Assembly: GCA_005776395.1 (NCBI GenBank)
Contig: SXPJ01000062.1
Location: 1-41,916, forward strand
Direction of reading: 5' to 3'
DNA: 41,916 nt
From: Bdellovibrionales bacterium
GTDB taxonomy: Bacteria > Bdellovibrionota > FAC87 > UBA2466
Under the pieces are notes generated by a model, which searched no databases, was not told the DNA's origin, and was given only the letters and a program-made list of their open reading frames with translations. Shown here in pieces: positions 6,822 to 41,403 of the stretch. The translations under genes were made by a program, and so were the position numbers. Each line of letters begins with the position of its first letter. The first letter of the stretch is position 1.

Positions 6822-6832
6822 GGCTTCCTCTT

Positions 6833-8946: not shown

Positions 8947-8949
8947 TTT

Positions 8950-9525: not shown

Positions 9526-9527
9526 TT

Positions 9528-10569: not shown

Positions 10570-10595
10570 AGCTCAAAGGCTCCTTACAGTTTTTC

Positions 10596-11822
10596 TTAGC
10601 CAGGCGATGCCGCTAAGTTGTTTAACTCTAATAAAGGCATAAAGATGGACAAAGCAACCAAAGCGATGATGCCACCCATGACGGCAATCATAAGCGGCTC
10701 GAGCAATCTTGTCATCGATTGTATTGCAGTATCGACTTGAGAATCATAGGCGTCTGACACTACATTGAGCATCTCCTCAAGTTCACCCGTTCGTTCCCCA
10801 ACCGCGATCATATGCGTCAGAATTGGAGGGAATTCTCCACTAGCTTTAAGCGGTCCTGCAATCGAGTGCCCTTCACTAATACTGTCTCTTGATTGAATAA
10901 GAGCTTTTTTGATAACAGCGTTATCAACGACCTCTTTAACAACATCAATGGCATCTAAAAGCTGAACTCCGCTACCCAACATAGTACTAAGTGTTCTAGC
11001 AAAACGAGATACAGCGATCATTCGAACTAGCTTACCTACTCCTGGGAGTTTTAGTGAAATTGCATCCCATTTGGCTCTCCCCTTCTCAGTGCTTACATAC
11101 CATTTAAAAAAGAAAAAGCTTCCCACAACTAAGGCAATTAAAAAGAACCACTGATTAGAGACAAAATGACTGATAGACAGCATGATTTGCGTAAGTTGTG
11201 GTAGGGCCATGTTAGACCCTGCAAAAACTTCAGTGATCTTAGGAACGGCAAAGGCAAATAGAAAGATGGTGATAGCAGTTCCAGCCACCATCATAAAGAG
11301 GGGATAGGTCATGGCGCCAATGATCTTTTGTCGCATGACTTGATTGGCTTCTGCAAAATTAGCCAGCCTCACAAGAACCAAGTCTAAGTTACCACTTGCC
11401 TCACCAACTTGAATCATGGCTATAAAAATAGGTGTAAAAACTTTCGGAAACATGCGACAGCTATCTGCTAGGGATCTTCCCTCATTTACAGACGCTTTAA
11501 CTTGGGACATCACCGATTTTAATTTGGGATCGTCGGTCTGTTCTACCACTGCTTCTAAAGCCTCATCCAGTGGAATTCGTGCTTTAATCATGGTCGACAA
11601 TTGGCGAATCATGAGCGTTAGGTTTTTTGAATTAACGGTACCCCCGAAGGAAATAACAGATTTCCCCTGCCCTTTCTTTTCTCCAGTTCGTTCTTTGATT
11701 TCGGAGATGAAAACTCCCCGTTGTTTCAATTTAAGTCGAGCTGATTTTGAAGAGTCTGCATCGACAGTGCCTTTGGTAGGTTTTCCGTCGCTTGAGACCC
11801 CTTTGTATTCAAAAATGGCCAT
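10596..11822 (-). CDS. gspF: Type II secretion inner-membrane platform protein GspF
   Basis: Polytopic inner-membrane protein, 408 residues, the usual length. It has two homologous GspF domains (about residues 68-195 and 270-395), each beginning with a FxRxLSTM-like motif: LTLMIRQLSTMIKARIPLDE and RFARTLSTMLGSGVQLLDA. Each is followed by EGRSLADS/EGHSIAGP and by hydrophobic hairpins. The N-terminal MAIFEYKGVSSDGKPTKG is typical. It forms the platform on which GspE drives pseudopilus assembly. It starts five bases after gspE. Confidence 0.97.
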   Translation of the reverse strand: MAIFEYKGVSSDGKPTKGTVDADSSKSARLKLKQRGVFISEIKERTGEKKGQGKSVISFGGTVNSKNLTLMIRQLSTMIKARIPLDEALEAVVEQTDDPKLKSVMSQVKASVNEGRSLADSCRMFPKVFTPIFIAMIQVGEASGNLDLVLVRLANFAEANQVMRQKIIGAMTYPLFMMVAGTAITIFLFAFAVPKITEVFAGSNMALPQLTQIMLSISHFVSNQWFFLIALVVGSFFFFKWYVSTEKGRAKWDAISLKLPGVGKLVRMIAVSRFARTLSTMLGSGVQLLDAIDVVKEVVDNAVIKKALIQSRDSISEGHSIAGPLKASGEFPPILTHMIAVGERTGELEEMLNVVSDAYDSQVDTAIQSMTRLLEPLMIAVMGGIIALVALSIFMPLLELNNLAASPG

Positions 11823-11827
11823 AATAA

Positions 11828-13555
11828 TTACTCTTGTGTAACTGAAACAAGTTCAATGGCTGTTGTAATTCCATTAAGAACCTTTTCGATGCCGTTTTGC
11901 CGTAAATTAATCATTCCTTTTTTCTGAGCAGCTTTTTTAAGAAGCGCTGAATCTGTCCGTTGCATAATGAGTGATTTGAGTTCATCATCCAAAATCATCA
12001 ACTCGTGTACGACCATTCGACCTTTATAACCGGTTCCGTTACATTCATTGCATCCTTTGGTTCGAACAATTTTTTTGCCTCCAAAAACATCTTTATCTAA
12101 ACTTAGATTGTCCAATTCTACAGTGGTTGGAGTGTAAAGTTCTGCACATTTTGTACAGGCCTTTCGCATGAGTCGTTGAGCTAATACGGCTAATAAAGAT
12201 GAGGAGACTAAAAATGGTTCAACACCCATATCGACAAGACGAGTAATTGCACCGGGAGCATCATTGGTGTGAATTGTAGCAAAAACCAAGTGCCCTGTGA
12301 GAGAGGCTTGAATAGCGATCTCGGCGGTTTCTTTATCTCGAATTTCTCCTACCATAATAACATCTGGATCTTGACGTAAAATAGCTCTCAGCCCAGAAGC
12401 GAAAGTAAGGCCTATTTTAGGGTTTGCTTGAATCTGTCCAATACCTTTGAGATCGTATTCGATTGGATCTTCAACAGTAATAATATTTCGATCAATCGAG
12501 TTGATTCTTGAAATAGCGGCGTAAAGAGTTGTTGTTTTTCCTGATCCAGTAGGTCCAGTCACAAGAATAATACCATGTTGTTTATGGATAATCTGATTAA
12601 TAATTTTAATCGACTCAGAATCAAAACCAAGATCTGGAAGGTCCAAACGGACACTGCTTTTGTCTAGAACTCTTAGAACTAATCTTTCCCCGTGTGCCGT
12701 GGGAATAACTGAGAGACGAAGATCAACGTCTTTACCAGCAATTTTAATTTTTATTCTCCCATCCTGCGGAAGTCGTTTTTCAGCAATATCTAATTCCCCC
12801 ATGAGTTTAATTCTAGAGGAAATACCTGCATGTAATCCTTTGGGCGGGCGAGCTACATCGTAGAGAACACCATCGATACGAAGTCTTACGACCATATCTT
12901 TTTCGTAGGGCTCAATGTGAATATCAGAGGCTTTATCTTTAATAGCTCTAAACATTAAATTATTTACAAATTTAATAATTGGAGCGTCGTTTTCAGAGGC
13001 CTCCAGTAGATCTACCGGTTCTTCGAGGTCATATTCAAACTCCTCAGCTTCTGGTTGATCCATGTCCTGCATAATGTCTTGGCGGACTCGCTCATAAATT
13101 CGGTTGATTGTGTCGATAATAATACGGCTTTCACAGAGTACGGGACGAATCTCTTTTTGAAAAATTACTCTTAGATCATCAATGCATTGTAGATTAAACG
13201 GGTCGCTTAGGGCTACTGTGACCGCCGAATCATCAATTGCTATTGGAATAACCTCAAATTGTCTTGCATACATAATGGGTAAATCTTTTACCCAGTCGAC
13301 ATTGATCGCATTGATATCAATATCTTTAATTGCAGGAATTCCTAATTGAAGACTTAAGGCGACTAGGATCTCATGGGGTTGAAGGAATTTCTTTTGAATA
13401 AGAATTTCCCCAATTTTCCCTCCTTTTTCTTTCTGTATCTCTAGAGCCTCTTTGAGTTGGTTTTCTGTTAAGGAGGTTTGAGTTAAAAGAATCTGACCAA
13501 TTTTGGTCTCTTGTCGCAAGGCCTGTTTGGCAATTTGTGATGTATTAGTTGTCAC
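11828..13555 (-). CDS. gspE: Type II secretion ATPase GspE
   Basis: Cytoplasmic hexameric ATPase driving pseudopilus assembly. Order: an N-terminal MshEN/N1E-type domain (GQILLTQTSLTENQLKEAL and KIGEILIQKKFL); the N2E domain with ASDIHIEPYE and RLRIDGVLYD; Walker A GPTGSGKT (about residues 334-341); the Asp box; Walker B with VIMVGEIRD (about 399-407); the His box; and a zinc-binding C-x2-C...C-x2-C motif (CTKC, CNEC) typical of GspE. The GTG at 13555 is preferred over the TTG at 13606 because AAGGA lies six bases upstream, and because gspD, if read across its homopolymer, would extend past the TTG. Length is 575 residues with this start. Confidence 0.95.
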   Translation of the reverse strand: MTTNTSQIAKQALRQETKIGQILLTQTSLTENQLKEALEIQKEKGGKIGEILIQKKFLQPHEILVALSLQLGIPAIKDIDINAINVDWVKDLPIMYARQFEVIPIAIDDSAVTVALSDPFNLQCIDDLRVIFQKEIRPVLCESRIIIDTINRIYERVRQDIMQDMDQPEAEEFEYDLEEPVDLLEASENDAPIIKFVNNLMFRAIKDKASDIHIEPYEKDMVVRLRIDGVLYDVARPPKGLHAGISSRIKLMGELDIAEKRLPQDGRIKIKIAGKDVDLRLSVIPTAHGERLVLRVLDKSSVRLDLPDLGFDSESIKIINQIIHKQHGIILVTGPTGSGKTTTLYAAISRINSIDRNIITVEDPIEYDLKGIGQIQANPKIGLTFASGLRAILRQDPDVIMVGEIRDKETAEIAIQASLTGHLVFATIHTNDAPGAITRLVDMGVEPFLVSSSLLAVLAQRLMRKACTKCAELYTPTTVELDNLSLDKDVFGGKKIVRTKGCNECNGTGYKGRMVVHELMILDDELKSLIMQRTDSALLKKAAQKKGMINLRQNGIEKVLNGITTAIELVSVTQE

Positions 13556-13683
13556 TGTAATTCCTTGTTTACCATAAAACAGAGTGTTAATTAATTTTAT
13601 CTTCAAGAGGCAAGTTTAACGGGCTTGACTCTGGCACCAAAGGGAGAGGCTCTGCCGAAAAAGAATCGACGGAAGATTCAGTA

Positions 13684-16320
13684 TCAGAATTTTCTCTTAA
13701 TTCGGGGTCTGGTTCCTTTGGTACGGGGGGGGGGCGCTGAGGATTTTATCTGCGGGGGATTCAGCTCTTTAGGTTTAGGAACTGGAGCTTTTTTTTCATT
13801 TGATTTTTTGGGGGTTGCTAGAAATTGTTCGTTAGTTTGAGAACTCTCACTGCTCATCTCCTCTTCATTGTTACGATAATCAAATAGAGGTTGATTTGTT
13901 CCTCTTTGATTCTGTTCCTTAAGAGTGTCTTTAAGCTCATTGAGTTCCTTCTCATTGGGATCTTCAGATCCGTAGTGTTTACCTACAAACTCTTCGCGTT
14001 TTTCAAGGCTTTTCTGAATCTGATTGGAGGCCTCCAAACTGGTCCCAATAATTCTGGGGTGCATTAGGATGATAGTATTAGTTTTTATGTTTTTATAAGT
14101 TTTAGATTTAAAGAGCCATCCTAGAACTGGAATGTCTCCTAGTAAAGGCACCTTGGATACACTTTCCTCGTTTTTATCAGACATGAGTCCGCCCATCATG
14201 ATGAAGTCTTGGTCTTTAACCACAATCGAAGTGTTTGTAACTCGTGAGGTTGTTGCAACTTGAAAATTTCTTAAGGCTTCTGGAACCGAGGTGGAAGGTT
14301 TGAAGGTATCGACTTTTTGTTCGATCTCTAGGCGAATGTTTTTGCTGGCGGCATTAATATGGGGGGTGAGTTTAATTGTTATCCCCGTTTTCAATCGCTC
14401 GACGGAACCTGTAGCTCCTCCTACCTGTGCAGTTGCAGCCACAAGAGATGTTTGTACTGGAATCTCATCAAGAACTTGGAATTCTGCCTTTTCATTGTCG
14501 AGAGCTATGATCTGTGGAGTAGAGAGCAATGAGGATTTTGTGGATTTAGTGAGTAGATTGATGAGCCCCATAAAGTTGCTTAGGGTTACACTAGAGGATG
14601 TTCCAGGGACAGAATAATTAAAAGTATTGCCTGCAGCGAATGGAATTGTAGCCCCTTCACTGGGGATGCCGCCTGAGATAGCGGAAAGTAATGAACCCGA
14701 GTCTCCAATGAATCCTCCCGCAAAACCTCTGCCAGGAGAGGCTGCAGCTAAATTGACTCCAATTTTAGTGGAGTCATCAATGGCGACTTCAATAATCGCA
14801 GTTTCTACAAATACCTGGAGTCTAGGAATGTCTAATTTCCTGATAACTTTTTTTAGGGTCTGAAAATCAACAGAGTTGGCTGTAATGACAAGAGCATTAG
14901 TTGCGGCATCGGACGTAACCTTAACTCCCCCTTCCAGTTCCGCAGAAACAGGGCCTGAACTTCCGCCTACAGGACCTCCTCCAAGTCCGCCAGGAGGTGG
15001 AGAGCTTCGTTTGGAAGATTTAGCTCCCGCCCCCCCTGAGAGAGAAGATAAGGTAGAGGCTAAATCTTCAGCTTTTGTATATTCACAATAATAGACATGG
15101 ATTCTTCCTGAATCTGTAGTCTTAACATCTAATTTTCCAACAAGCTGTTTTAGCTGCTCAAATCCTGATACGTTAGCTAATACGACTAAACTGTTAGTTT
15201 GTTCATCGGGAATGATTTTTGAGATGACTCCACCCCCTCGCGTTCTCTCCAAAGCGCTTTTTCTAACAGAACGGGGTTGCCCTGGTGAGCTTTTCCCTTC
15301 GCTGTAAATTTCGCCTAGCATGTCTGCGATAGCTTTAGCGGCTCCGTTTTTGATTCTTAAAACATGAAGAGTTGTTTCATAGTTTTTAACATCTAGAGTT
15401 TCTAATATTTCTTTGATGCGTTGAATATTTGAACCGGTATCGGTAATGATGATTGAATTTGTGGGCTCATATGCGAATAGCTTACCCTGACGAGTTGTTA
15501 AATCTCTAAACTCTCTTTGCACCTCATCTGCATTAATAAATTTAAGTTGGAAGATACGAGTAATAAATTGGTCGTCTTTAGGAGCATAATCTCCTGCATA
15601 TGTTTTTACAGGAGCTCTTCGGGCTTCAGCAGAATCGATCACACGGATATATTTACCAGCTTGAACTGTTGTTAAACCATTGGCTTCGAGGGCTGTTAAA
15701 AAGGCTTGATAAGCTTCTTGAAGAGAGACTGCTGAGGGGCCCATAATCGTGATTCGGCCTCTAACTTTTTGATCAATAATAAAATTTTTGCCAGTCCATT
15801 TAGAAATTAGAGTGACTACGTCTTTAATTTCCTTGTCAGCCAGGTCAAAGTTTTTAACCTCTAAAGACTTAATAGAGGGATCGAGTTCAAGATAGTCCGC
15901 AAGTTTAGGGGCGGTTTTCTTTTTGGCGGTAGAGTTGCTTGCTGTGTTTGTGGCTGGAGGACTTAAAGGGGGCCTTCTTCCGGGGGCTACTGGGGGAGTC
16001 ATGGGTTGGGTCGGTCTTGCGGTTGGAATTTGAGGTGTTGTGTTTAAGTTGGGTTGAGTAGAGGAGGGGCTGGGAGTTGGTTGGGAGGGGGCTGAAGGAA
16101 CTGGAGTGATAGGTTGAAATCCAAAATTATTTCCAGGGTCTAAGAAATTATCATCTTCTTGAAACTCTGATCCGGGAGGCGGGGGCGATGAAGGAGGCTC
16201 TGGAGTCCAACCAAAGGGATTACTGTCAGAATCTACTGGAGGCGATTCTGACCATATTATATTCGAAAAGCTTAGGCAAAAACAGTACAGCGTCATTAGT
16301 ATTATTTGTTTTTGTTTCAT
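13684..16320 (-). CDS. gspD: Type II secretion outer-membrane secretin GspD, apparent 3' frameshift
   Basis: Outer-membrane secretin channel. A signal peptide (about 1-25) is followed by an unusual Pro/Ser/Thr-rich stretch of about 115 residues and then the N0 domain (about 150-225, SLEVKNFDLADKEIKDVVTL). N1-N3 domains follow, with DEQTNSLVVLANVSGF and DAATNALVITANSVDF. The secretin core (about 560-780) includes STPQIIALDNEKAEF and VPLLGDIPVLGWLFK. Read in one frame, the protein has 878 residues and ends in a basic tail RTKGTRPRIKRKF just after ten C residues (13725-13734 on the plus strand). One base fewer there would extend the protein by 46 acidic residues to a stop at 13587, which looks more natural. 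Family length is about 650 residues; the extra lies in the Pro-rich N-terminus and the C-terminal tail. Confidence 0.95.
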   Translation of the reverse strand: MKQKQIILMTLYCFCLSFSNIIWSESPPVDSDSNPFGWTPEPPSSPPPPGSEFQEDDNFLDPGNNFGFQPITPVPSAPSQPTPSPSSTQPNLNTTPQIPTARPTQPMTPPVAPGRRPPLSPPATNTASNSTAKKKTAPKLADYLELDPSIKSLEVKNFDLADKEIKDVVTLISKWTGKNFIIDQKVRGRITIMGPSAVSLQEAYQAFLTALEANGLTTVQAGKYIRVIDSAEARRAPVKTYAGDYAPKDDQFITRIFQLKFINADEVQREFRDLTTRQGKLFAYEPTNSIIITDTGSNIQRIKEILETLDVKNYETTLHVLRIKNGAAKAIADMLGEIYSEGKSSPGQPRSVRKSALERTRGGGVISKIIPDEQTNSLVVLANVSGFEQLKQLVGKLDVKTTDSGRIHVYYCEYTKAEDLASTLSSLSGGAGAKSSKRSSPPPGGLGGGPVGGSSGPVSAELEGGVKVTSDAATNALVITANSVDFQTLKKVIRKLDIPRLQVFVETAIIEVAIDDSTKIGVNLAAASPGRGFAGGFIGDSGSLLSAISGGIPSEGATIPFAAGNTFNYSVPGTSSSVTLSNFMGLINLLTKSTKSSLLSTPQIIALDNEKAEFQVLDEIPVQTSLVAATAQVGGATGSVERLKTGITIKLTPHINAASKNIRLEIEQKVDTFKPSTSVPEALRNFQVATTSRVTNTSIVVKDQDFIMMGGLMSDKNEESVSKVPLLGDIPVLGWLFKSKTYKNIKTNTIILMHPRIIGTSLEASNQIQKSLEKREEFVGKHYGSEDPNEKELNELKDTLKEQNQRGTNQPLFDYRNNEEEMSSESSQTNEQFLATPKKSNEKKAPVPKPKELNPPQIKSSAPPPRTKGTRPRIKRKF
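13725..13734. repeat. Ten-base G/C homopolymer inside gspD
   Basis: Ten consecutive G on the plus strand are ten C in the gspD coding strand. Ten C give stop TGA at 13684; nine C open a frame ending TAA at 13587; eleven C stop after about ten codons. The tract is therefore a possible slippage site or a sequencing error. Confidence 0.9.
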
Positions 16321-16327
16321 AACGGCC

Positions 16328-17326
16328 TCATTTCACCTCATAAGAGAGCGGAATTTCTTGCCCTCCCCTTAAAACCTTTAGATCTATCTTTCTTGCATTT
16401 CTTAGAACTTGGAATGCTTCGACTCCCTTTCCGATGTTATCGAATATGACATCGTTTGCGGAGAGTAGAACGTCTCCTTGAGATAGTCCTAATGAAGCGA
16501 ATGGAGAGTCGGGCTCAATGTTTTGAATCAAGAAGCCCTTCATTTTATTATCAATTGTGAAGGGAACTGCTTTTGCGGTCTGCAGAACGTTGTTGATGTC
16601 TTTTAATTGTTGTTCAAGATAGTTAAGTTTAACAGCGTAATTGAACTCCCCAACTTTATTAATGCTATCTGAGAGACGCCCTTCTTTAAAGGGCATCAGA
16701 CTGTTGCCATCGTCGGGTATTACAATGAATTCCAACTCCTGTGACTGTTTTATCTGAAAACAAAATCGTTTTCGATCAACTTTAAGGGCTTGAAATCTTC
16801 CATCAGAAAATAGTTCATCTTTTTTTACTGCAAATTTATTAGATTTACCTTCTTCCTCAAGAAGCGCCACAGACAGGTCCTCATTTGTCATTACAATGGT
16901 TCCAAGAAGTTTTAAACGTTGCCCCGATGGTTTTGCTTGAGAGAAGCAATCTAAAAGCCCTTGATCAAAAGGTTCTGGAATCTTATTTTCAACGTTAAAA
17001 ATATTTCGATTTTCAATTGCGTTAAAGTCTTCAGGTGGAACTGTGGATTTCTGAAGGGCTATTTTTTTGGGGGGCAAGAGGGTGTAGGCGGGGCGAATAA
17101 AATAGGTGCCAATAATTCTAGAAGCAATTGCACTAGCTAAAAGAACTGCAAGAGCAGTGAGTCCCATTCGAAATAGAAGTGAATGTTGCTGAACTGAATT
17201 TAAGTCGATTTTTTTTGGGATTTTTTGATTGAGTGCATTGAAAATACGGCTGGGTTGCGAGGCTCTTCGTAAACGACTGCCATCGGGTCCATGCTGTTTA
17301 AATATTTTTTTAAAAAACTTTTTCAT
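16328..17326 (-). CDS. gspC: Type II secretion inner-membrane protein GspC
   Basis: First gene of the type II secretion operon, 332 residues. A basic cytoplasmic N-terminus (MKKFFKKIFKQHGPDG) leads to one membrane segment (about residues 52-72). A homology-region domain with NIFNVENKIPEPF and LKLLGTIVMTNEDLSVALL follows at about 105-180. The C-terminus is a PDZ domain (about 245-330, GFLIQNIEPDSPFASLGLSQGDVLLSANDV). GspC connects the inner-membrane platform to the N-domains of the secretin GspD. It is separated from gspD by seven bases and diverges from the DUF309 gene across a 247-base gap where the operon promoter must lie. Confidence 0.95.
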   Translation of the reverse strand: MKKFFKKIFKQHGPDGSRLRRASQPSRIFNALNQKIPKKIDLNSVQQHSLLFRMGLTALAVLLASAIASRIIGTYFIRPAYTLLPPKKIALQKSTVPPEDFNAIENRNIFNVENKIPEPFDQGLLDCFSQAKPSGQRLKLLGTIVMTNEDLSVALLEEEGKSNKFAVKKDELFSDGRFQALKVDRKRFCFQIKQSQELEFIVIPDDGNSLMPFKEGRLSDSINKVGEFNYAVKLNYLEQQLKDINNVLQTAKAVPFTIDNKMKGFLIQNIEPDSPFASLGLSQGDVLLSANDVIFDNIGKGVEAFQVLRNARKIDLKVLRGGQEIPLSYEVK

Positions 17327-30582: not shown

Positions 30583-31272
30583 ATGAAAATGCTTCTTCTT
30601 AAGATTCTCAGCTTGGCCATGGTTTCTAATTTAGTTTTAGCGGCAGATGAGAATGTCATTGAAAAACAACTTCAAGAAATAGGAACTATTCCTAATGAGG
30701 AGGTTGTTGTTGTTCAAAGAAAATTTACTCGAAAAAAATGGCGTCATGAATTCTCTCCTGTAGGATTTGGCGGCGTCCCTTTCGGAACCTATCGAAGAAC
30801 TCTTCTGGGTTCTGCTAGCTATACATTGCATGCAAATGATTGGTTGGGACTTGAGCTCTTCAACTTTTCTTACAACAAGAATTTTTTTAGTTCATTTTTA
30901 GATGACATAAATGCGAATGCCTCTGGAGGCCCGGAGATCTATCTGGACTACCAAAAACTTCTCTACTTCATGACTGCTGGATTTCAGCTGACTCCGTTCT
31001 ATGGAAAAGTTTCCACCTTCTCCCGATGGCTCGCCTATGTAGAGCCCTATTTCTCAGCTGGCTTTGGTCTTGCGAAAACTGAAACTAATGCCTATCTCGC
31101 TGCCTATCCCGGAATCGGATTGCGAGCCTTCTTTACCGAGTGGTTTTCTATGAGGCTAGAATTTAGGGATTATATCTATAGCGAGAAAAAGAGAGATGGG
31201 AATTCTGAATTGCGAAATAATTACGCAGTCTCAGTTGCGTTGAGTTTCTGGCTCCCGAAAATGCCTCGATAA
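30583..31272 (+). CDS. Outer-membrane beta-barrel protein (Myxococcus-type OMP family)
   Basis: A 229-residue exported protein and the first gene of the Glt-like cluster. The signal peptide is about residues 1-20 (MLLLKILSLAMVSNLVLAAD). Mature strands alternate polar and hydrophobic residues, e.g. ASYTLHANDWLGLELFNFSY and WLAYVEPYFSAGFGLAKTE, and the last strand YAVSVALSFWLPKM is a typical barrel end. It resembles the beta-barrel proteins (GltA/GltB/GltH type) that accompany the gliding apparatus in Myxococcus. Thirty-four bases separate it from the next gene, which has its own AAGGAT site. Confidence 0.78.
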   Translation: MKMLLLKILSLAMVSNLVLAADENVIEKQLQEIGTIPNEEVVVVQRKFTRKKWRHEFSPVGFGGVPFGTYRRTLLGSASYTLHANDWLGLELFNFSYNKNFFSSFLDDINANASGGPEIYLDYQKLLYFMTAGFQLTPFYGKVSTFSRWLAYVEPYFSAGFGLAKTETNAYLAAYPGIGLRAFFTEWFSMRLEFRDYIYSEKKRDGNSELRNNYAVSVALSFWLPKMPR

Positions 31273-31306
31273 AAATTTAAGCTAATAACCTGTTAAGGAT
31301 ACGACT

Positions 31307-32767
31307 ATGAAACACATCAAGGTTTCCTTCTGGATTCTCCTATCATCCACCCTTCTTTTTGCAGCTTCAGATAGAAGTTCAGCTTTTGAGGTGGGAAAGA
31401 GAGAGTTTGAAAGCGGGAATTATTCGCGAGCAATCGAACTCTTTTCTCAGGCAATCTCAAGCTCTATAGATCCTGCTCAAAGAAATAAGGCCTATTACTT
31501 TCAGGGGCTAGCGATGTTTGAACAGGGGCTCTACTTTTCTAGTTTTATTTCATTTCGAAATGTTCTGTTGTCTGCTGAAGAAAAAAATCGCGAGCTCTAT
31601 GAGAAGGCTATTAAAAACGCGGCTATCATTACAGATCGTTTAGATATGACTGAGAACCTTGGAAAGGTAATTGATAAACTTCCAGCGGGATATATTCCAA
31701 ATTCTGTTGCGGGAATCGCTCACTACACTCAGGGGGTCTATCACTTTTCGACAGGACAAACCTCGTCGGCTTTGAGTCACTTTAAATCTGTGAGTCCTGA
31801 AAGTCAGTTCTATGACAAGGCTTTGATGTATCTAGGCATTCTTTCTACTCAGGCTAAAGACTATAAAGAGGCAAGCTTTTATTTTGGAAAACTAATCAAT
31901 TTATCTCAGGGAAAAAGGGAGCTCTTTGCGCAGCAGGAGTTGGCTCGTTTAAATCTTGCGAGAACTGCTTACTCCATGGGCAATATCGAGAAGTCTATTG
32001 AACTCTATGCGCAGTTCTTAAGCTCTTCCCCTTATTGGTTAACGGTTCTTCAGGAGGCTAGCTGGCCTTTGATGAGAGTTAATGACACCACTGTTTCTTT
32101 AGGTAATTTACATACTGTTTTATCTCCCTTCTATCGGGAGGAGTTGGTAGGCGAATCATACATCTTAAAAGCTACTATTCTTTACTCGCTTTGCAAGTAT
32201 GAGGAGATGAAGAGAACTCTAAGTCAGTTTTTTAACGTTTATGATCCAGTGATCCGAAGCCTGCAACAAGAGACCTCAAGTCTTGCCTCTGGAGATGCTT
32301 TCTACAGAGCCTTTACCAGTGAGAAAGGACTTAATAGAGCGTTTCAAAACTATATTAAAAGAGATCCGGGAATTGTTAGAGATCAGAAGATTTTAAGCAT
32401 TTTGAAAATGGAAAGATTTAATCTGGCTCGTTTTTCAAAGAATAAGCAGATTATGAACATGGGTAACTTAATCGAAGAGGCTCAGAAAAACCTAGAAAAC
32501 CAAATGGGGCGTACTATGCAGAGGGTGCACAGAAATAAACTTTCTGATCTTCTTAGCCAGAGAGAGCAGGCTAACTACTTAAAAGTTGAAATTGTCACAG
32601 GTGAAAAAGAGATGATTGAAGGGCAAAAAGGGTTGCCTCCCAAACGAATTACCGACGTGGAAACATCTGTGGCTGCAGGGTATCACTTCTGGCCTTTTAC
32701 TGGCGAGTATTGGGAAGATGAAATGGGAACCTATATCTATACGACGGAGAGTGCTTGTGTTAACTAA
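31307..32767 (+). CDS. Exported TPR protein, Glt-like cluster
   Basis: A 486-residue periplasmic protein with a signal peptide (about 1-20, cleavage near LFAAS). TPR-like helical repeats run from about residue 25 to 300, e.g. AFEVGKREFESGNYSRAIEL and LNLARTAYSMGNIEKSIELY. The C-terminal third is helical and rich in Lys/Arg/Gln, ending in WPFTGEYWEDEMGTYIYTTE. I infer a structural scaffold by analogy with the Glt TPR proteins; the exact Glt letter cannot be assigned. Its end overlaps the next gene by 11 bases. Confidence 0.8.
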   Translation: MKHIKVSFWILLSSTLLFAASDRSSAFEVGKREFESGNYSRAIELFSQAISSSIDPAQRNKAYYFQGLAMFEQGLYFSSFISFRNVLLSAEEKNRELYEKAIKNAAIITDRLDMTENLGKVIDKLPAGYIPNSVAGIAHYTQGVYHFSTGQTSSALSHFKSVSPESQFYDKALMYLGILSTQAKDYKEASFYFGKLINLSQGKRELFAQQELARLNLARTAYSMGNIEKSIELYAQFLSSSPYWLTVLQEASWPLMRVNDTTVSLGNLHTVLSPFYREELVGESYILKATILYSLCKYEEMKRTLSQFFNVYDPVIRSLQQETSSLASGDAFYRAFTSEKGLNRAFQNYIKRDPGIVRDQKILSILKMERFNLARFSKNKQIMNMGNLIEEAQKNLENQMGRTMQRVHRNKLSDLLSQREQANYLKVEIVTGEKEMIEGQKGLPPKRITDVETSVAAGYHFWPFTGEYWEDEMGTYIYTTESACVN

Positions 32768-35700
32768 TTTCGCAAAAACTCTTTTTCTATGGCCAATAGT
32801 TATTGTGGCAGCTAATCAAGACTATGAAAATTTTGATTTGCCAAACAAACCTGCTATTGCCGCGGTTCCCGAATCCAAACTAGCTTATCAAAGTTCTAGA
32901 GTTAGCTTAAAAGGCACTAAACTCACCGTTAAAGAGCCTAGCCTTAATCATCAAATGTTCGTATTTGCTAAAGAGGCATTTATTACGGAGAAGAGAGATG
33001 AGGCCATCAAACTGCTCAGGCAAGAGATGGACTCTGGATTAAAAGCCAATCGAGATAACATGCTTCTAAGGCTAGGGCAGCTCTATGCTGAAAAATATAT
33101 GGAGATGTCCTATCGAGAAAATGAGTATTTCAGTAAACAGCTTGTGGAATATGAAAAAAATAAAGTTGCAAACTCCAAGTTGGGAGTTCCGCGATTAGAT
33201 AACAGTCGATCTCAAAAGTACCTTAAAGAGGCTCTCCAGGTGTTTTATGGTTTAGAGAAAGAGTTCCCTAAACATCCGAAAATGGATGAAGTGGTCTTTT
33301 TCATCGGCTTCGTGGAGTTAGAGGCAGGAAATGCAAAAAAGGGGCTAATCTATCTCGAGAGAGTTGTTAAAAATTATCCGAGTAGTCGAAAGTGGTCTGA
33401 AGCGGTTCTTTATGCCGGTGATTACTATTTTGATAACCATAAGTTTAAAGATGCGGCTTCAAGATATCAAATGTTGTTTAGTCGGGCCTCTACCTTAAGA
33501 GACTATGCCGAATATAAATTGGCGTGGTGTGAACTTAATACCGGAGAACCTAAAAAAGCTCTTCGAAGTATGAAGAGGTTGATTGAACGTTTAGATAGAA
33601 ATACTGAAGCTGGAAAGTTCAACCTTAGAGATCAATCCCTAAAGGATTTAGTCTCTTTCTATGCTGAAGCTGAGAACGTAGATGATGCGATGGCATTTTT
33701 CACAGAGATGCAGAGCAAAGATAAGGCTCTCTCAAATCTTCGACTTCTTGCTGATCTATTTCGAAATAAAGCCAAAGATGAAGCGGCTATTAGAGCCTAT
33801 TCTAAGCTCATTGAGGAGTTTCCAGACGGGCTTGATACTCCTAATCTCTATTTGGGACTCTATGAGAGTGAATCCCGTATCGGCAAATCGACTGCTGCCA
33901 TAAAAACACTTATGACAACGCTCGAAAAGTTTGGGGAAAATTCTGATTGGGCTAAAAATATTTCTGAAGATAAAGCCAATGAAAAGAAAGCAGTTTTAGA
34001 AACCTTAACTGGCGAAGCCGCAAAAGCCGCCTATTTTCATCATAATGCAGCTCAAAAAAGCGCTAACCGTGGTCATTATGATTACGCTTTAAAAATCTAC
34101 TCAAGCCTTCTAACTAACTTCCTTGCTTTTCCCGATCGAAAAAAGATCGCATTTTTTCAAGCGGAGGCGCTGTTTAATCTTAAAAAGTGGCTAGAGGCTT
34201 CTCAAAGCTACATGATTGCAGCCCAGATTCCACCTAAAGATAAGATAAGCAGTGAATCTGTCTATAATGCGCTATTAGCTTTGGATAAACTGACAGAGGC
34301 AAGCGCTAAACTATATCGCTACGATAAAAACGAACAAAAGAATATAGATCTTACTCCAGAAGAAATTCCAGATGCGGAGAAAAAGTTTATTGAAGTCGGT
34401 GAATACTATATTAAAGAATACCCAAAGGGCGACCGTGAGGTCGATGTCGAGTTTCGTATTGCATCGATCTATTACCGCAGACATCACTTTAATGAGGCTC
34501 AAACAGCATTTAAAAATATCTCCTTAAATCACCCTGAACATCGAAGCGCAACTACAGCGGCCCATATTGTGCTTGATATCGATAATATTAAGAAAGACTA
34601 TTCAGCGCTTACAGCTCATGCTCAAGAGTTTACATCGATTAAAAGGCTTGGAGACGTTGCTTTCCGAAAGGAGTTGGCTGAGATTGTCGGTGAGATTGAT
34701 TTTAAAGGTATTGAAAGCTTTGAAACTAAACAGGAGTGGGCTAAAGCAGCAGCAAGTTATTTAAAATTTTACGAATCAAATCCCAATAGTCCTCTCGCTG
34801 AGAAAGCACTCTATAATGCGTATGTAAGTTGTCAAAAACAGGAAGATGCTCAGAAAACAGCTCAAATGGCAAAACTCTTTATCGTGAAGTTTCCTAAGAG
34901 CAGCTACTCGGGAAAAATCATGTTAAGTCTCGCTCAAGAGTCTGAGAAGCAGAGTGATTTTGAGACAGCTCAGAAACAATATCAGGAATTTTACAAGAGG
35001 TTTCCTGAAGATAAAGAGGCTAAAAAAGCACTTTATAACGCTGCGGTTTATGCTGAGTTGCTGGAGTATAATAGACTGGCATTACAGCTCTACGATACCT
35101 ACCAAAAAGAGGGTAAGCCCAGTGAAAAAGAGCTGAGGGCTATTGAAATTTCAAGAGCCAAGATTTATCGCAAAGAAAAAGAGATGGATAAGTCTGCTGC
35201 TATCTACGTGAAATTGGCTAAGGAAAGTAGAACCCTTAGTGAAAGAATCGATATCTTAGGTGAGCTTGCTAGAAATTTTGAAAAGGCGGGAATGATTTCT
35301 AAGAAAGAGGGGATTGTTTCCGAAATAAAAAAGATAACTGAAGCCAATAAGAGGGTTAAATCCACTGGAAACGCAGCCTATTATTTGGCAGAAAGTTATT
35401 TTAAGGAGATTGAGAAAGAGAGAAAGAAATATGACTCTATTAAGTTGAGATTTCCTGAAGCAGATCTCATTCACTTGATGAAACGAAAACAAAAGGCTCT
35501 CTTGAAATTAACGAAAAGCTATGATGATGAAATCGAGAGAGGAGTTCCTGATTGGGGGGTGGCGGCTCTCTATGAAAAAAGTAACGCCTATGAAAACTAT
35601 GTAATTCAGTTCAGATCTCTCAAGATTCCTGGTCGCTACAAACCTGAAGAGAGACAAGAGGCCGAATCGGCCTTAAAGCAGATCGATGCAAAACAGATTG

Positions 35701-35897
35701 CTCCATTGGAACAGAAAGCTCAGGAAATATTAGCTGTGTGCGCTGAGAGGGCAGCTCAGTTTCATGTGGTGAGTGAATATGCCAAGAAATGTAGAGACAG
35801 GGCTAAAAAGCCTGAAGGACAGTTTGATCCAGGGGGTATTTGGCCACAGCCCTCTTATTGGAGTATTCGAGGCCCCAAAGAAGGGAGTTCTGAATAA
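32757..35897 (+). CDS. Large exported TPR protein, Glt-like cluster
   Basis: A protein of 1046 residues built of helical repeats. The frame is open from 32616, but that part is inside the previous gene. The GTG at 32757 is chosen because GGAG lies seven bases upstream and the product then begins with a signal peptide (MLTNFAKTLFLWPIVIVAAN). TPR-type units are scattered throughout, e.g. AVLYAGDYYFDNHKFKDAAS, YDYALKIYSSLLTNFLAFPD and DVEFRIASIYYRRHHFNEAQ. It is comparable with the large TPR proteins GltD/AgmU or GltI/AgnA of Myxococcus. Its TAA stop overlaps the next ATG by one base, so translation is coupled. Confidence 0.82.
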   Translation: MLTNFAKTLFLWPIVIVAANQDYENFDLPNKPAIAAVPESKLAYQSSRVSLKGTKLTVKEPSLNHQMFVFAKEAFITEKRDEAIKLLRQEMDSGLKANRDNMLLRLGQLYAEKYMEMSYRENEYFSKQLVEYEKNKVANSKLGVPRLDNSRSQKYLKEALQVFYGLEKEFPKHPKMDEVVFFIGFVELEAGNAKKGLIYLERVVKNYPSSRKWSEAVLYAGDYYFDNHKFKDAASRYQMLFSRASTLRDYAEYKLAWCELNTGEPKKALRSMKRLIERLDRNTEAGKFNLRDQSLKDLVSFYAEAENVDDAMAFFTEMQSKDKALSNLRLLADLFRNKAKDEAAIRAYSKLIEEFPDGLDTPNLYLGLYESESRIGKSTAAIKTLMTTLEKFGENSDWAKNISEDKANEKKAVLETLTGEAAKAAYFHHNAAQKSANRGHYDYALKIYSSLLTNFLAFPDRKKIAFFQAEALFNLKKWLEASQSYMIAAQIPPKDKISSESVYNALLALDKLTEASAKLYRYDKNEQKNIDLTPEEIPDAEKKFIEVGEYYIKEYPKGDREVDVEFRIASIYYRRHHFNEAQTAFKNISLNHPEHRSATTAAHIVLDIDNIKKDYSALTAHAQEFTSIKRLGDVAFRKELAEIVGEIDFKGIESFETKQEWAKAAASYLKFYESNPNSPLAEKALYNAYVSCQKQEDAQKTAQMAKLFIVKFPKSSYSGKIMLSLAQESEKQSDFETAQKQYQEFYKRFPEDKEAKKALYNAAVYAELLEYNRLALQLYDTYQKEGKPSEKELRAIEISRAKIYRKEKEMDKSAAIYVKLAKESRTLSERIDILGELARNFEKAGMISKKEGIVSEIKKITEANKRVKSTGNAAYYLAESYFKEIEKERKKYDSIKLRFPEADLIHLMKRKQKALLKLTKSYDDEIERGVPDWGVAALYEKSNAYENYVIQFRSLKIPGRYKPEERQEAESALKQIDAKQIAPLEQKAQEILAVCAERAAQFHVVSEYAKKCRDRAKKPEGQFDPGGIWPQPSYWSIRGPKEGSSE

Positions 35898-36760
35898 TGA
35901 GTCAACTGAGTTTAATGGGATTGTTCGGATTCTTGTTTGTGATGGGTTGTTCAGCGACTCGTAGTAATGAGATCAAAGGAAAGACCTATGAGTATCTGTC
36001 CTGGTTCGATGGTGATTCTTCAGAAGAATTTGATTCCTATCGAAAAATTCTTTCAGAAAAGCTGGAAGGGGTTGAGGAGGATAAAGAGGACCCTACTAAC
36101 GTAGAAAAGCATTTAGATTATTTGGCTTCGCTGGATGCGAGTGGCAAAAAAAATGGGATAGAAAACAAGATCAAGGCTTTTATTGCCAAGAATCCAGAGG
36201 AGAAGCGAGGATTATTTCTTCTTGGAGTTCACTATATGCGAAATAAAAGGCGTGAGTTAGCGAACCATTTTTTTACGCTTTTGGAAAAAGATCCTAATTT
36301 TGTATGGAAGTCTTTGCTCTATAACAACCTTGGAATGTTAAGTTTGCAGGATAAAGAACGTGGGAAGGCTATTGGGTATTTTGAAAAGGCTATTAATACT
36401 GAACCTGCTATAGCAGCTCCACGAGTTAACCTTGGATCTCTTTATATTCAGAGTAAAAGTTACTTGGATGCTTTGCCTTTATTTAAAAGAGCTCTAGAAA
36501 TAGACAGTAATTTTGAAGATGCTGCCCTGGGATTGGGATTGTGTTATGAAGCTCAGGGAAAGTTTAACGAGGCGCATAAAGTATATTCTGAATTCTCAGA
36601 GAGTCATTCCAATTGTTTAACTGTGCTCTATAACGACGCGTTGGTTTTGGGCAGAAATTTAGGAAAGCGTCAAGAGGCGTCTGAGATGATGCTTCGTTAC
36701 ATTCAACGCGGTGGAAAAGAAACAGCAAAAGCTCATGAAATGATTCAGGGATGGCGATAA
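35897..36760 (+). CDS. TPR lipoprotein, GltE/AglT-like
   Basis: A 287-residue lipoprotein. The signal sequence ends in a lipobox FVMGC, with lipidated Cys at about residue 18. After a polar linker come TPRs (about 85-265): YNNLGMLSLQDKERGKAIGY, APRVNLGSLYIQSKSYLDAL and AALGLGLCYEAQGKFNEAHK. In Myxococcus, AglT (GltE) is an outer-membrane-associated TPR protein encoded in the same kind of gene group; similarity in plan supports but does not prove the match. It is coupled to the preceding gene by an overlapping TAATG. Confidence 0.8.
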   Translation: MSQLSLMGLFGFLFVMGCSATRSNEIKGKTYEYLSWFDGDSSEEFDSYRKILSEKLEGVEEDKEDPTNVEKHLDYLASLDASGKKNGIENKIKAFIAKNPEEKRGLFLLGVHYMRNKRRELANHFFTLLEKDPNFVWKSLLYNNLGMLSLQDKERGKAIGYFEKAINTEPAIAAPRVNLGSLYIQSKSYLDALPLFKRALEIDSNFEDAALGLGLCYEAQGKFNEAHKVYSEFSESHSNCLTVLYNDALVLGRNLGKRQEASEMMLRYIQRGGKETAKAHEMIQGWR

Positions 36761-36825
36761 GACAATTGCCATTCTCTAATTTAAGTCTCAAGGTTTTTTT
36801 AGAAAATGGGTTAGAGGGTCTAAAT

Positions 36826-37179
36826 ATGAAAATAGCAATTATTCATCTAATTTTGATTTCTACATTTGTGTATACCGCGGATGCATTTGCTAAGTTAAAA
36901 AATTCTGTTTCTCGTGTGGCCCCGAAAGAGTCTGTGAGTGCTGCTCCAGGAAAGCGAGAAGAGGGGGATTTTATTGTTGAAAAGAAATCGGACGGGACAA
37001 CCGTAAAATATAAAAAGAAAACCACCTACGATTTTGAAGGCGCGAACATTGAGGGTTTATACAATAAGCCTTCGGGGTCTTATATCTCAAATATTAAAGA
37101 TGTGAAGGGTAAAAGTATTATTCGGTTAAGGGAAAATTTCGATGCTGAGGTTTTGGATTCAGCAAGGCTTATTAAATAA
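36826..37179 (+). CDS. Small exported protein of the Glt-like cluster
   Basis: A 117-residue protein I do not recognise. The ATG at 36826 is preferred over one at 36751, because GAGGG lies eight bases upstream and the product begins with a signal peptide (MKIAIIHLILISTFVYTADA). The mature part has a basic, Lys-rich stretch (VKYKKKTTYDFEGANIEG), then GLYNKPSGSYISNIKDVKG, and ends LDSARLIK. Its place between the TPR lipoprotein and the FHA protein suggests a periplasmic accessory, possibly comparable with GltF by position only. Confidence 0.65.
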   Translation: MKIAIIHLILISTFVYTADAFAKLKNSVSRVAPKESVSAAPGKREEGDFIVEKKSDGTTVKYKKKTTYDFEGANIEGLYNKPSGSYISNIKDVKGKSIIRLRENFDAEVLDSARLIK

Positions 37180-37187
37180 GAGGCAAT

Positions 37188-39398
37188 ATGGAAGCTAAAG
37201 AACAAAACTTAGCTGGTTCAGGAATTCGGCTCGACGTTTTAGGGAAAGATGGAAGCGTCATCCATAGCGGAGAGTATGTAAAAGACAAAATCGTGCTAGG
37301 TAGAATTTTATCAGCCGATTTACGGATCGATGATCCTAGAGTCTCCAGGATCCATGCCCTAATTGAAACTAAAAATGAGGGTATTGTACTTACCGACTTA
37401 GCTTCGAGCCACGGGACCTTTATCAATGGTAAAAAGGTTATCGAATCTAAAATTAAATTTGGAGATACGATTCGTCTTGGATTTATTGAGGTGAAAATAG
37501 AAAATGGAACTGGCCAAGCTTCAGCACCTTCAGTAGTGAGTTTTGAAAACACCGAAGTTAAAGATACTGATGTTACTTTAGTTGATATTGATAGAAGCAA
37601 GTTTGAGTCTGATAGACGGGGACCTGACCGAAGAAAAAAGGATGCATTTCCAGAAGAAAAAAGGCTTGAAGATCGTCGGGGTGGAGATAGAAGAGTCGAG
37701 CAGCGCAAAGAGAGTCGTCCAAAAGAAACAGGGGCCGCAACTGATGTTGTGGATGTTGAACTAAAAGTAAAGTCTGATCTCGGACAACCCTTGCCCGTTG
37801 AACGTCGCCAGGAGGAAAGACGTAAGAGTGATAGACGAGTTTTTGATATCACGAGTCTTGAGCGTCGTATTCAAGATCGAAGAGAGAGAAAATCGGATGA
37901 CGATATGTTGCCCGAAGAGTTAGAAAAGGCCTTTGAATTGCCTCAGCATGCGAGAGAGCTCGAAGTGACCGCGTTGTGGGGTGATCAGATCCTTGATATT
38001 TCTAACTATGCTGATGAGTGTGTATTGAGTATCGGAGAGAGCCCTCGTAATGATTATATTATTCCTAGTGTAGGAATCCCCGATGAGTTTCCTTTGCTAA
38101 GTATTCAAGAAGATGGTTCTAGTCAACTGGCGTTTACAGAACAGATGACGGGAACCGTTAGAGCTCGAGATAAAATTTATTCTATCAAAGATCTTACGGG
38201 TGAAAAGTTTGTGCGAAAAGAGGGCGATTATTATGTGTTGCCTTTGAAGCAAGATGACTTTGCTAAAATTTCTGTGGGCACTGTTAGCTTTTTTATTCTT
38301 TATGTGAAGCCAGCTCCAAGAATATTGCCTCCACCTATTTTTGAACAAGACGCTTTATTAATGAGAACGACCATTGGGTCGGTTCTTTTATTCTTGGCAC
38401 TACTTATTGGATTGTCATTTGTTCCAAAGCCCATTCCAGTTACCATTGAACAGATTCCTGAACGGTTTGCTAAAGTTGTGATTAAGAAGCGGCCGGATAT
38501 CTCTAAGATGGGCCTTATTGCTAAAGGTGAAGAGTCTAAACAAGGGGGGTCGGTAGCTGGGGAAGGCGGTCCTGCGATTGGACCCGAAGGTGAAGCGGGA
38601 AGAAAGGATCTTCCAAGAAAAGAAGAGAAGGCACAAACCATTCTTCCTAAGTCCAAACCTAAAGAGAATACAACCCCTTCAGCTCAAACAAGCAAAACAC
38701 TAAATCCTGCAAAGGCAAAGGCTCCTGAGAAGAAATCGGTTAAGAGTGTTGGGTTGTTGAAATCTATTTCTAATGGAGCGATCCAAAAAGAATTTAACAA
38801 TCTAATCAATGCGGGAGAAGGCCCAGAGGGGCCTGGTGGTTTTGATGACTTTGGAAAAGCTGTTCGTGGTGCTCGAGGGAAGAGCATTGAAGAAACAGGC
38901 GGAGCGGGAGGTATGGGGCTTAAGGGTGTGGATGCCGGAGGCGGTGGAAAAACTGTTGGAATCGATGGCCCTTCTACTAAAGGACTCGGTCGAGGTTATC
39001 ATGGCGATGGAATTGGAGAGGGAATTTCCGGGCCGGGAAGATTTGGTCAGAAAGGTGAACACGCTATTAGTATTGTTTCCGAAAATATTCAGGTTCTTTC
39101 AGGTCTCTCTAAAGATTTAATCAATGCTGTCGTTCAAAGGCATAGAGCAGAGATTAGAGCCTGTTATGATTCAGCTCTTCAGCGAAATCCGAAGCTCTCA
39201 GGAAAAGTGGTTATGTCGTTCAGTATTCAACCGAATGGAATCGTTTCCACGGTGGGAGTTAAAGAGAGTACGATTGGAGACACGGGCTTAGAAGGTTGTA
39301 TTGCAAGTCGAATTAAGAGCTGGGTATTTCCTAAACCAGAAGCTCCAGTTGTGACCGAAGTTGCGGCCTATCCGTTCTACTTGAATCCTGCTAATTAA
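37188..39398 (+). CDS. FHA and AgmX/PglI C-terminal domain protein, GltG/PglI-like
   Basis: A 736-residue inner-membrane protein spanning cytoplasm to periplasm. Residues about 12-105 form an FHA phosphothreonine-binding domain (IVLGRILSADLRIDDPRVSR and DLASSHGTFINGK). A linker carries repeated Arg-rich DRR/ERR motifs (about 140-245). A second beta domain with FHA-like features spans about 260-385. One membrane helix is at about 392-412 (TTIGSVLLFLALLIGLSFV). A Pro/Lys- then Gly-rich region (about 430-630) leads to a TonB-like AgmX/PglI C-terminal domain (about 640-736) with HRAEIRACYDSALQRNP and GCIASRIKSWVFPKPE. This plan matches PglI/GltG of Myxococcus. It is the last gene of the cluster. 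Confidence 0.9.
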   Translation: MEAKEQNLAGSGIRLDVLGKDGSVIHSGEYVKDKIVLGRILSADLRIDDPRVSRIHALIETKNEGIVLTDLASSHGTFINGKKVIESKIKFGDTIRLGFIEVKIENGTGQASAPSVVSFENTEVKDTDVTLVDIDRSKFESDRRGPDRRKKDAFPEEKRLEDRRGGDRRVEQRKESRPKETGAATDVVDVELKVKSDLGQPLPVERRQEERRKSDRRVFDITSLERRIQDRRERKSDDDMLPEELEKAFELPQHARELEVTALWGDQILDISNYADECVLSIGESPRNDYIIPSVGIPDEFPLLSIQEDGSSQLAFTEQMTGTVRARDKIYSIKDLTGEKFVRKEGDYYVLPLKQDDFAKISVGTVSFFILYVKPAPRILPPPIFEQDALLMRTTIGSVLLFLALLIGLSFVPKPIPVTIEQIPERFAKVVIKKRPDISKMGLIAKGEESKQGGSVAGEGGPAIGPEGEAGRKDLPRKEEKAQTILPKSKPKENTTPSAQTSKTLNPAKAKAPEKKSVKSVGLLKSISNGAIQKEFNNLINAGEGPEGPGGFDDFGKAVRGARGKSIEETGGAGGMGLKGVDAGGGGKTVGIDGPSTKGLGRGYHGDGIGEGISGPGRFGQKGEHAISIVSENIQVLSGLSKDLINAVVQRHRAEIRACYDSALQRNPKLSGKVVMSFSIQPNGIVSTVGVKESTIGDTGLEGCIASRIKSWVFPKPEAPVVTEVAAYPFYLNPAN

Positions 39399-39498: not shown

Positions 39499-41403
39499 TT
39501 ATTTAATTCTCAACCAAGCTAACATTTTTCCAATAAGATTATTTTGATTGTTATCGGGTCCTTTTTGAGGGGGGGGAATAGTTAGGGTTTTTTTAATTCC
39601 TTTGGATTTATTAGGAGAAGGCTGTTTAATTCTAGGAGCTAAAAGTTCACTGACATCAGAAGGTTTTGTAGATTGATTTACTTGCTCTTCTAAAACTTGA
39701 TTGATTATTATTTCTAATGGGGGGAGCGCTAAGGTTTCAAAACCAGGTCTAACCCCTTCGGAATCTGCAATTTTAAGCTCGGAGGTTTCTGAAGGAGAGG
39801 AGGATAATGAAACTAAGCCTCGTTGGGGATTGTTATCATTTGATAGGCTTGTAATTGGAGAGAAGGTTCCATCATTGTTAAAAGTATAATTGATTGTATT
39901 TGAATTCGAATTAGAGTCGCTCATTTGGTTTATATTGACGGTGCTGGGAGCTATTTCGGCTTTAAGGGGTGAGTTTGTGGGAGTTGTGGCTGAGTTGTTA
40001 GAGTTGGTATTATAAGCAACTGGAGATCTCTTAAGGCTGAGATTCTGAGATCTATAAGCGGGTTCAGAATTAGTTGGCCCCTCTTGTTTAGTGGTTGGGT
40101 TTTGAGGTGGTAAAGAGGATTCGTTCACTATATTGGGTGTCTGTAATTCTAAATAGGGTGAAACTGAATTAGCATTATTATTTAAGTTAGTCTTTGGGCT
40201 GTTTTTGAGTTTAAATATTGAGTCAGGTAACTTTGGATAATTAGAAATTTTTATCGGCGAATTCTCAAATCTAGTTAATGGGAAGGGTTTTTTTGGGAGG
40301 GCACTTGAGTTTGTTAAAATTTCTGGTTCTGAGGAAGTAGATGGGATTCCCTCTGTGCTATTTTGTTGAGATGGGGTTTGAATTAAATTTTCTGGAAGCC
40401 GGAAATCATTTTCCTTACGAAAGGATTCATTTTCTTGTGATGAAGAATTGCCTTCATATATATTGGGAAGCGAAGAGGGTGGGGGGTAAGAAATAGTTGT
40501 GTTGGGCTTGTGAAATGATTCTTTATTGTTGTTTTTTGTATTCTGTTGAGGGAAATGGTTTTCAATATCGGAATCCGTTAGACTATTCTGTGTAGTGCTA
40601 TCTGATAAAAAGTTGTTATTGGTTTGATTAAATTGAGAATTTTTTAAATCTTTTTCTAGTGAGCTTAAAGTATCTAAAGCTTCTTTATAGGCCTCTACTA
40701 AGGTATCTCCAATTTTTTCATTGCTTTCAACATGATTAAGAATGCCCTTTCGAAGTTCAATGATTTCCTTTTGTAGTTCCTTAAGTTCTTCGATGGAGAG
40801 GGTCTTTTCCTTGATTTGAGTTTCCTCTATCTTGTGAATGATAGAGGAAACTTTGTTTTGGAGTTCTGTTTTAACTTCGTGTTGCTCTAAATCTTCTTTG
40901 AGTTCTGCCCTTAGTTTATCAAGGTTAGGCAGGTCTTTAGAATCAATAGAGTCTCGGCCAAGAGCATCTATTTTGGCTAGACTATTTTTGATTTGGTTAA
41001 GCAACTCTTGATGTTCGTTAAGTAATCTTTTTTTTTCATTTGTGAGATCTTTTTTGTTTTGAAAAGATTTTGTATCTTTTATTTTGTCTAGGATGTTTCT
41101 GATTTGTGTGTTCAAATCTTTTAAGTATTTAAAGGTAAGTTCTAAGTTTTCATTAAATAAATTTAGCGAAATTTTATTTGAATTTGAGTTGTTGAATAAC
41201 GGTATATCGAGCGTATTGCCTGAAGAATGTTGAGTAGCTAAAAGTTCAAAGGGAGAGAATAATAGTCCCAAACCCAATGAGCACAGTAATGCTTCTCTGA
41301 AAAATTTACCCCATATTGGAATCATGAGTTTGCCCCCGTTATCTAAAGAGAGCAATGAAGGGGCCAAAGGATTTAAATCCTTAAGATCTGATTTCATCCT
41401 CAT
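39499..41403 (-). CDS. Exported coiled-coil, Asn/Ser/Pro-rich protein
   Basis: A 634-residue protein of unknown function. A hydrophobic segment (about residues 34-56, EALLCSLGLGLLFSPFELLA) is a signal peptide or anchor; with the ATG at 41325 (MIPIWGKFF) it would sit at the very N-terminus, so either start is possible. Residues about 75-260 are strongly coiled-coil (KKRLLNEHQELLNQIKNSL, LSIEELKELQKEIIELRKG). From about 265 to 590 the chain is low-complexity, rich in Asn, Ser, Pro and Thr, with no repeats of fixed length. It ends NLIGKMLAWLRIK. Its composition differs sharply from its neighbours. It is not part of the plus-strand cluster. A surface or secreted stalk-like protein is a guess. Confidence 0.72.
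   Translation of the reverse strand: MRMKSDLKDLNPLAPSLLSLDNGGKLMIPIWGKFFREALLCSLGLGLLFSPFELLATQHSSGNTLDIPLFNNSNSNKISLNLFNENLELTFKYLKDLNTQIRNILDKIKDTKSFQNKKDLTNEKKRLLNEHQELLNQIKNSLAKIDALGRDSIDSKDLPNLDKLRAELKEDLEQHEVKTELQNKVSSIIHKIEETQIKEKTLSIEELKELQKEIIELRKGILNHVESNEKIGDTLVEAYKEALDTLSSLEKDLKNSQFNQTNNNFLSDSTTQNSLTDSDIENHFPQQNTKNNNKESFHKPNTTISYPPPSSLPNIYEGNSSSQENESFRKENDFRLPENLIQTPSQQNSTEGIPSTSSEPEILTNSSALPKKPFPLTRFENSPIKISNYPKLPDSIFKLKNSPKTNLNNNANSVSPYLELQTPNIVNESSLPPQNPTTKQEGPTNSEPAYRSQNLSLKRSPVAYNTNSNNSATTPTNSPLKAEIAPSTVNINQMSDSNSNSNTINYTFNNDGTFSPITSLSNDNNPQRGLVSLSSSPSETSELKIADSEGVRPGFETLALPPLEIIINQVLEEQVNQSTKPSDVSELLAPRIKQPSPNKSKGIKKTLTIPPPQKGPDNNQNNLIGKMLAWLRIK

Follow-up and report, generated by a model that had tools for sequence, protein, structure and literature searches.

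The closest known relatives of the gene cluster described here are the trans-envelope machines of Myxococcus xanthus and Bdellovibrio bacteriovorus. The Agl-Glt genes of M. xanthus occupy the loci G1, with gltD-J, G2, with gltK-B-A-C, and M1, with aglRQS (PMC3169522); GltA, GltB and GltC belong to its motility complex, and CglF is GltF (PMC4488436). In B. bacteriovorus there are four expanded core sets, including Bd0828-0838, and the genes gltA/B/C/D/E/F/G and aglRQS are present while gltH, gltI, gltJ and gltK, all needed for gliding in M. xanthus, are absent (PMC3169522). The gliding machinery of the Bdellovibrionota is still called unidentified (PMC13104615).

We analysed a stretch of 41,916 bp, called the window in what follows, which is the whole of contig C56 in an assembly (G000) of 2.76 Mb, 106 contigs and 98% completeness. 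On its forward strand, at 30583-39398, six co-directional genes follow one another with overlaps of 1-11 bp or short gaps, in the order barrel-gltC-gltD-gltE-gltF-gltG. An initial annotation, made from the letters alone, had already noticed this arrangement and had likened it to the Myxococcus Glt set, and profile searches now support the likeness: NCBIfam names five of the six proteins, as OMP_myx_plus, GltC, GltE, CglF (that is, GltF) and GltG. The scores of GltC, GltE, GltF and GltG fall under the NCBIfam equivalog cut-offs, yet they are highly significant (2e-40, 1e-14, 5e-14 and 2e-85), as is expected of members from another phylum. Since the gene order is shared with relatives, the cluster is not a product of chance. 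It represents the outer half of a proton-driven surface (gliding-type) machine that is already known, and is a further member of a described family; more precisely, it is very probably the barrel-GltC-D-E-F-G part of an Agl-Glt machine powered by a separate AglRQS operon, found on contig C94.

The first gene (30583..31272), which is also the first in relatives, encodes OMP1, an outer-membrane protein of 229 aa with a signal peptide and a predicted 8-strand barrel of the GltA/GltB type. It scores 82.1 bits against TIGR04565, OMP_myx_plus (E 4e-23; NCBIfam cut-off 60), and its AlphaFold2 model, of moderate quality (mean pLDDT 68.5), is an 8-strand OmpA-like barrel. A second OMP_myx_plus barrel, encoded on contig C12, may be its counterpart in a GltA/GltB pair. 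Just upstream of the motor genes lies another barrel gene, OMP2 (C94 2181-2927), whose AlphaFold2 model is a small barrel of about 8 strands (mean pLDDT 79.3); no NCBIfam model matched it, and profile comparison relates it weakly at most to OMP1 (probability 51%, E 2e-4). The best solved structural matches of both models are OmpA-type and similar small barrels, and the candidates for a GltA/GltB pair are OMP1, the one on C12 and OMP2.

Next comes gltC (31307..32767), an exported TPR protein of 486 aa, nearly the whole of which matches NF033756, gliding_GltC (139 bits, E 2e-40; equivalog cut-off 450); its identity is 54-80% in relatives of the family and order, and 25% (E 1e-34) in genome G018. 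The third gene (32757..35897) has a GTG start, overlaps gltC, and encodes a long exported TPR protein of 1046 aa, AgmU-like. Although no GltD model matched it in the NCBIfam search, it is presumably GltD, judging from its position, its size, its TPRs and its distant homology to the gene that G018 (25%, E 2e-69) and G032 (27%, E 8e-70) have between gltC and gltE. The protein exceeds the curated NCBIfam cut-off of TIGR02795, the tol-pal protein YbgF (103 vs 90 bits), so that automatic annotation is likely to misname it. We reject an identity as the YbgF/CpoB protein of the Tol-Pal system and consider the score a TPR cross-match, because the tol genes are on contig C50 and because gltD is placed between gltC and gltE in all examined relatives with a separate gltE. 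One sister genus has no separate gltE: a single protein of 1275-1294 aa contains the GltD part, then a GltE-like part (L086:8008-11832 in G010, L090:5707-9588 in G013 and L092:5904-9761 in G012), and the GltE portion of this fusion would not exist as a separate lipoprotein.

Between gltD and gltF, the AglT-like gltE (35897..36760) encodes a TPR lipoprotein of 287 aa with lipobox VMGC. It scores 54 bits against NF033758, gliding_GltE (E 1e-14), and slightly higher, 57.8 bits, against one generic TPR model. The small exported protein that follows, GltF, has NF033764, gliding_CglF, as the sole family found in NCBIfam (52 bits, E 5e-14). Its listed reading frame is 142 aa long and begins at 36751, but most frames of relatives span 104-124 aa, and Met26 is where the signal peptide begins; the likely start is therefore Met26, at 36826, which yields 117 aa (36826..37179). 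The GltF of M. xanthus has 89 residues (PMC3169522). Except for this start, the lengths read initially (229, 486, 1046, 287 and 736 aa) agree with ours.

The last gene, gltG (37188..39398), encodes a PglI-like protein of 736 aa that scores 288 bits against NF033760, gliding_GltG (E 2e-85, NCBIfam). It consists of an FHA domain at residues 35-98 (37290..37481; PF00498, 59.6 bits), a single TM segment at about residues 388-420 (38349..38447, from hydropathy), and a periplasmic part that ends in the TonB-like AgmX/PglI domain, residues 640-732 (39105..39383). This tail scores 100.7 bits against NF033768 in NCBIfam, with a cut-off of 40, and 105 bits in the genome search; the sequence search of the PDB gave matches confined to the FHA region. 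The TPRs, FHA and TonB-like domains that had been proposed from the letters are recovered by profiles, and the lipobox is present in GltE. Between FHA domain and TM segment, at about residues 140-255, lies an Arg-rich insert with repeated DRR/ERR motifs, in which a stretch FDITSLERRIxxRRxR is conserved in the window's family and order; in the alignment, the insert is missing from G018 and G032.

A genome search for the AgmX/PglI tail found no gltJ homologue: besides gltG, one protein of 165 aa has this tail, on contig C31. This short protein (L019:498-995) stands alone and adjoins a glutamine synthetase-like gene, and similar short proteins with the tail, of about 174-186 aa, occur in several relatives. 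In the window, the gene behind gltG (39499-41403, reverse strand) encodes an Asn/Ser-rich, exported-looking protein of 634 aa with no convincing family match in profile searches including NCBIfam; a weak relative (28-32%) is found at the same place in two genomes of the genus alone. An ordinary type II secretion operon lies at 5232-17326, on the reverse strand (PDZ/GspC-like, GspD, E, F, pseudopilins, J, K and PilM/GspL-like).

The window has no motor. A profile search of the whole contig gave no MotA_ExbB or ExbD match, as the initial annotation had remarked of AglRQS and MotA/TolQ genes; it had left two readings, a gliding-type engine with its motor elsewhere, or a reduced machine without one. 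The genome search for aglRQS and tolQR homologues that it suggested bears on this choice: five MotA/TolQ/ExbB genes are found in the genome, none of them on C56, and one belongs to an operon OMP2-aglR-aglQ-aglS at C94 2181-4863. In this operon the MotA/TolQ/ExbB gene aglR (C94 2996-3751) is followed by two ExbD/TolR genes, aglQ (C94 3770-4312) and aglS (C94 4312-4863), which is the aglR-Q-S layout of M. xanthus, and both ExbD-type proteins keep the intramembrane Asp aligned with the Asp of TolR. The glt cluster is thus not motorless, and the engine with a motor elsewhere is the reading that holds. The other four genes are a tolQ on C50, with tolR, a tolA-like gene and tolB, an exbBD pair on C30, and one motAB-like pair each on C12 and C9. 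The identity of the C94 AglR is 21-24% to the proteins of C30 and C50 in its own genome, but 40-52% to AglR-like proteins found more widely in the phylum. From such sequence comparisons we infer that the C94 motor pairs with the glt cluster. About 7 kb downstream of the motor are three adjacent FHA proteins and a TadC-like gene (L014:11822-16684, on C94), and a block of this kind is near the motor also in G001, G004, G010, G012 and G014.

The pairing can be examined in relatives. We scanned 80 motor loci of named genomes, none of them from M. xanthus or B. bacteriovorus; the flanks covered 10 kb or, in many cases, less, and 70 of the loci have a Q-like as well as an S-like gene. Elsewhere in the phylum, at least 41 of 67 related motor loci have glt genes no more than 10 kb away, in many cases arranged as a divergent gltG-F-E-D-C-barrel cluster, whereas a glt gene appears in the flanks of none of the 13 closest loci, those of the window's family and order. 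Given the limits of the flanks, the count of 41 is a lower bound, and the absence at the 13 loci covers near surroundings only. The single contig of G018 carries a contiguous series of two barrels-gltC-D-E-F-G-aglR-...-S, and G032 also has a contiguous glt cluster with motor. These counts and the two contiguous clusters indicate that the motor with which glt genes of the phylum are usually paired is of the R-Q-S type, and that the split is a feature of the window's order.

In relatives of the family and order, the glt block and the OMP2-aglRQS block are separate loci, each conserved in order. Identities within the genus are about 65-90% for the glt proteins and 91-93% for AglR; in the sister family, they are 43-72% and 69%. 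Nearly all relatives that have the glt cluster also have the R-Q-S operon. An assembly break could account for the split in the window's genome taken alone, but the motor is unlinked in every genome of the family and order examined: in G010, an assembly of about 20 contigs, it lies about 96 kb inside a contig of 240 kb, and the glt genes are on another contig. Moreover, the aglRQS of M. xanthus also forms a separate cluster, so that it is nothing unusual for a glt block to have no motor next to it. One may ask whether, in the window's order, the motor now stands by itself, together with a conserved barrel of its own, and drives several outer-membrane partners, as AglRQS does with Glt and Nfs, or a separate surface task besides Glt; we find this unlikely.

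The polarity gene mglA was sought in a sample of 39 genomes of the phylum, the query being an approximate M. xanthus MglA sequence. It matched in 34 of the 39 genomes (E down to 1e-105), among them four of the five other genomes of the genus, but neither this query nor the PF00025 profile found MglA in G000; one of the profile searches, having no match in any genome, carries no weight. A loss need not be assumed. In G001-G004 and G010, mglA follows dnaX and recR; in the window's genome, contig C97 (10,768 bp) ends inside dnaX, at residue 129, and recR was not found either, which points to an assembly gap. No MglB-type Roadblock domains were found in the window's family, and B. bacteriovorus likewise has none (PMC3983030). 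The MglA of a sister genome (L203:5764-6342), and that of its relatives, has Gly at position 21 (PGLGGKT), unlike the MglA of B. bacteriovorus, which has Ser there (PMC3983030); even so, no MglB-type gene was found.

Assuming that the motor and the cluster do work together, AglRQS would use the proton motive force to generate movement in the inner membrane, and GltG would take up this movement through its TM and periplasmic part, while the FHA domain would read a cytoplasmic phospho-signal. GltF, GltD, GltE and GltC would then transmit the force through the periplasm to reach OMP1 and the other barrels, which would hold a surface polymer or the substrate. The outcome would be directed transport at the surface, and most likely gliding across surfaces or prey. 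This scheme presumes that the complex assembles and that AglR touches GltG, a contact proposed by analogy with M. xanthus, where two-hybrid experiments detected it (PMC3169522). A transducer of the TonB/Tol type, in which GltG would be energised by the cell's own TolQR or ExbBD, is suggested by the TonB-like tail of GltG and by the presence of tolQR and an exbBD pair in the genome. Those motors, however, are in operons of their own, Tol with a TolA-like protein and TolB; the type linked to glt in the phylum is R-Q-S, not a simple Q-R pair; and in M. xanthus AglR contacted GltG while its homologue MXAN_3003 did not (PMC3858216). Such a transducer is therefore very improbable. We give still less credit to a scaffold that spans the envelope, stays static, works with no Agl motor at all and serves prey contact, polarity or export. 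The lack of a MotA/TolQ gene in the window speaks for it, but an R-Q-S operon exists in the genome and in nearly all cluster-bearing relatives, and related motors adjoin glt genes in the phylum.

What a motor-driven machine delivers at the surface is a different question. By analogy, gliding is its probable output, and the likeliest one, since B. bacteriovorus truly glides with a comparable set that lacks gltH-K (PMC3169522). The mglA genes of the phylum sample also speak for gliding, although gliding itself does not require MglA in B. bacteriovorus (PMC3983030). However, there is also the possibility that the same machine, with the same motor, transports a surface polymer or protein, as does the Agl-Nfs spore-coat machine of M. 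xanthus, which has paralogues of GltA-H, none of GltI, J or K, and the same AglRQS (PMC3858216). The genome has no GltJ-type second long tail protein that our search could find, its C-to-G genes are together, as in nfs, and the core complex defined in 2011 occurs in bacteria not known to glide (PMC3169522); set against a gliding Bdellovibrio, these facts leave polymer transport possible but rather doubtful. Returning to the machine itself, a single-copy Agl-Glt machine for surface transport is the most likely reading.

The results remove a false puzzle, as the motor of the cluster exists in the genome. They add no new kind of machine: the initial annotation had thought that the specific make-up might be undescribed, but the gltCDEG and aglRQS core and the Bdellovibrio set without gltH/I/J/K were published in 2011 (PMC3169522). 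One glt cluster and one aglRQS operon do offer a simpler gene set for the study of function, if a relative can be cultured.

Compared with the Agl-Glt system of M. xanthus, the order barrel-C-D-E-F-G corresponds to the A-C end of G2 followed by D-E-F-G of G1 (PMC3169522), the aglR-Q-S motor is likewise at a separate locus, and GltG has the same FHA domain, TM segment and TonB-like tail. The differences are that the parts of G2 and G1 are joined in one cluster, that no gltJ was found (no second long protein with an AgmX/PglI tail), that a separate barrel gene precedes the motor genes in their operon, and that in the window's order the FHA domain of GltG is followed by an Arg-rich insert. The Agl-Nfs system of M. 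xanthus, a paralogous A-H set in a single cluster, driven by AglRQS and without I, J and K (PMC3858216), is also comparable, but the NCBIfam search matched Glt models and none for Nfs. With B. bacteriovorus, compared through its published description, the GltJ-type tail alone being sought here, the phylum and the glt and aglRQS set are shared; it has four sets, the best candidate with motor and glt genes in one locus, whereas one set was found in the present genome, with its motor unlinked.
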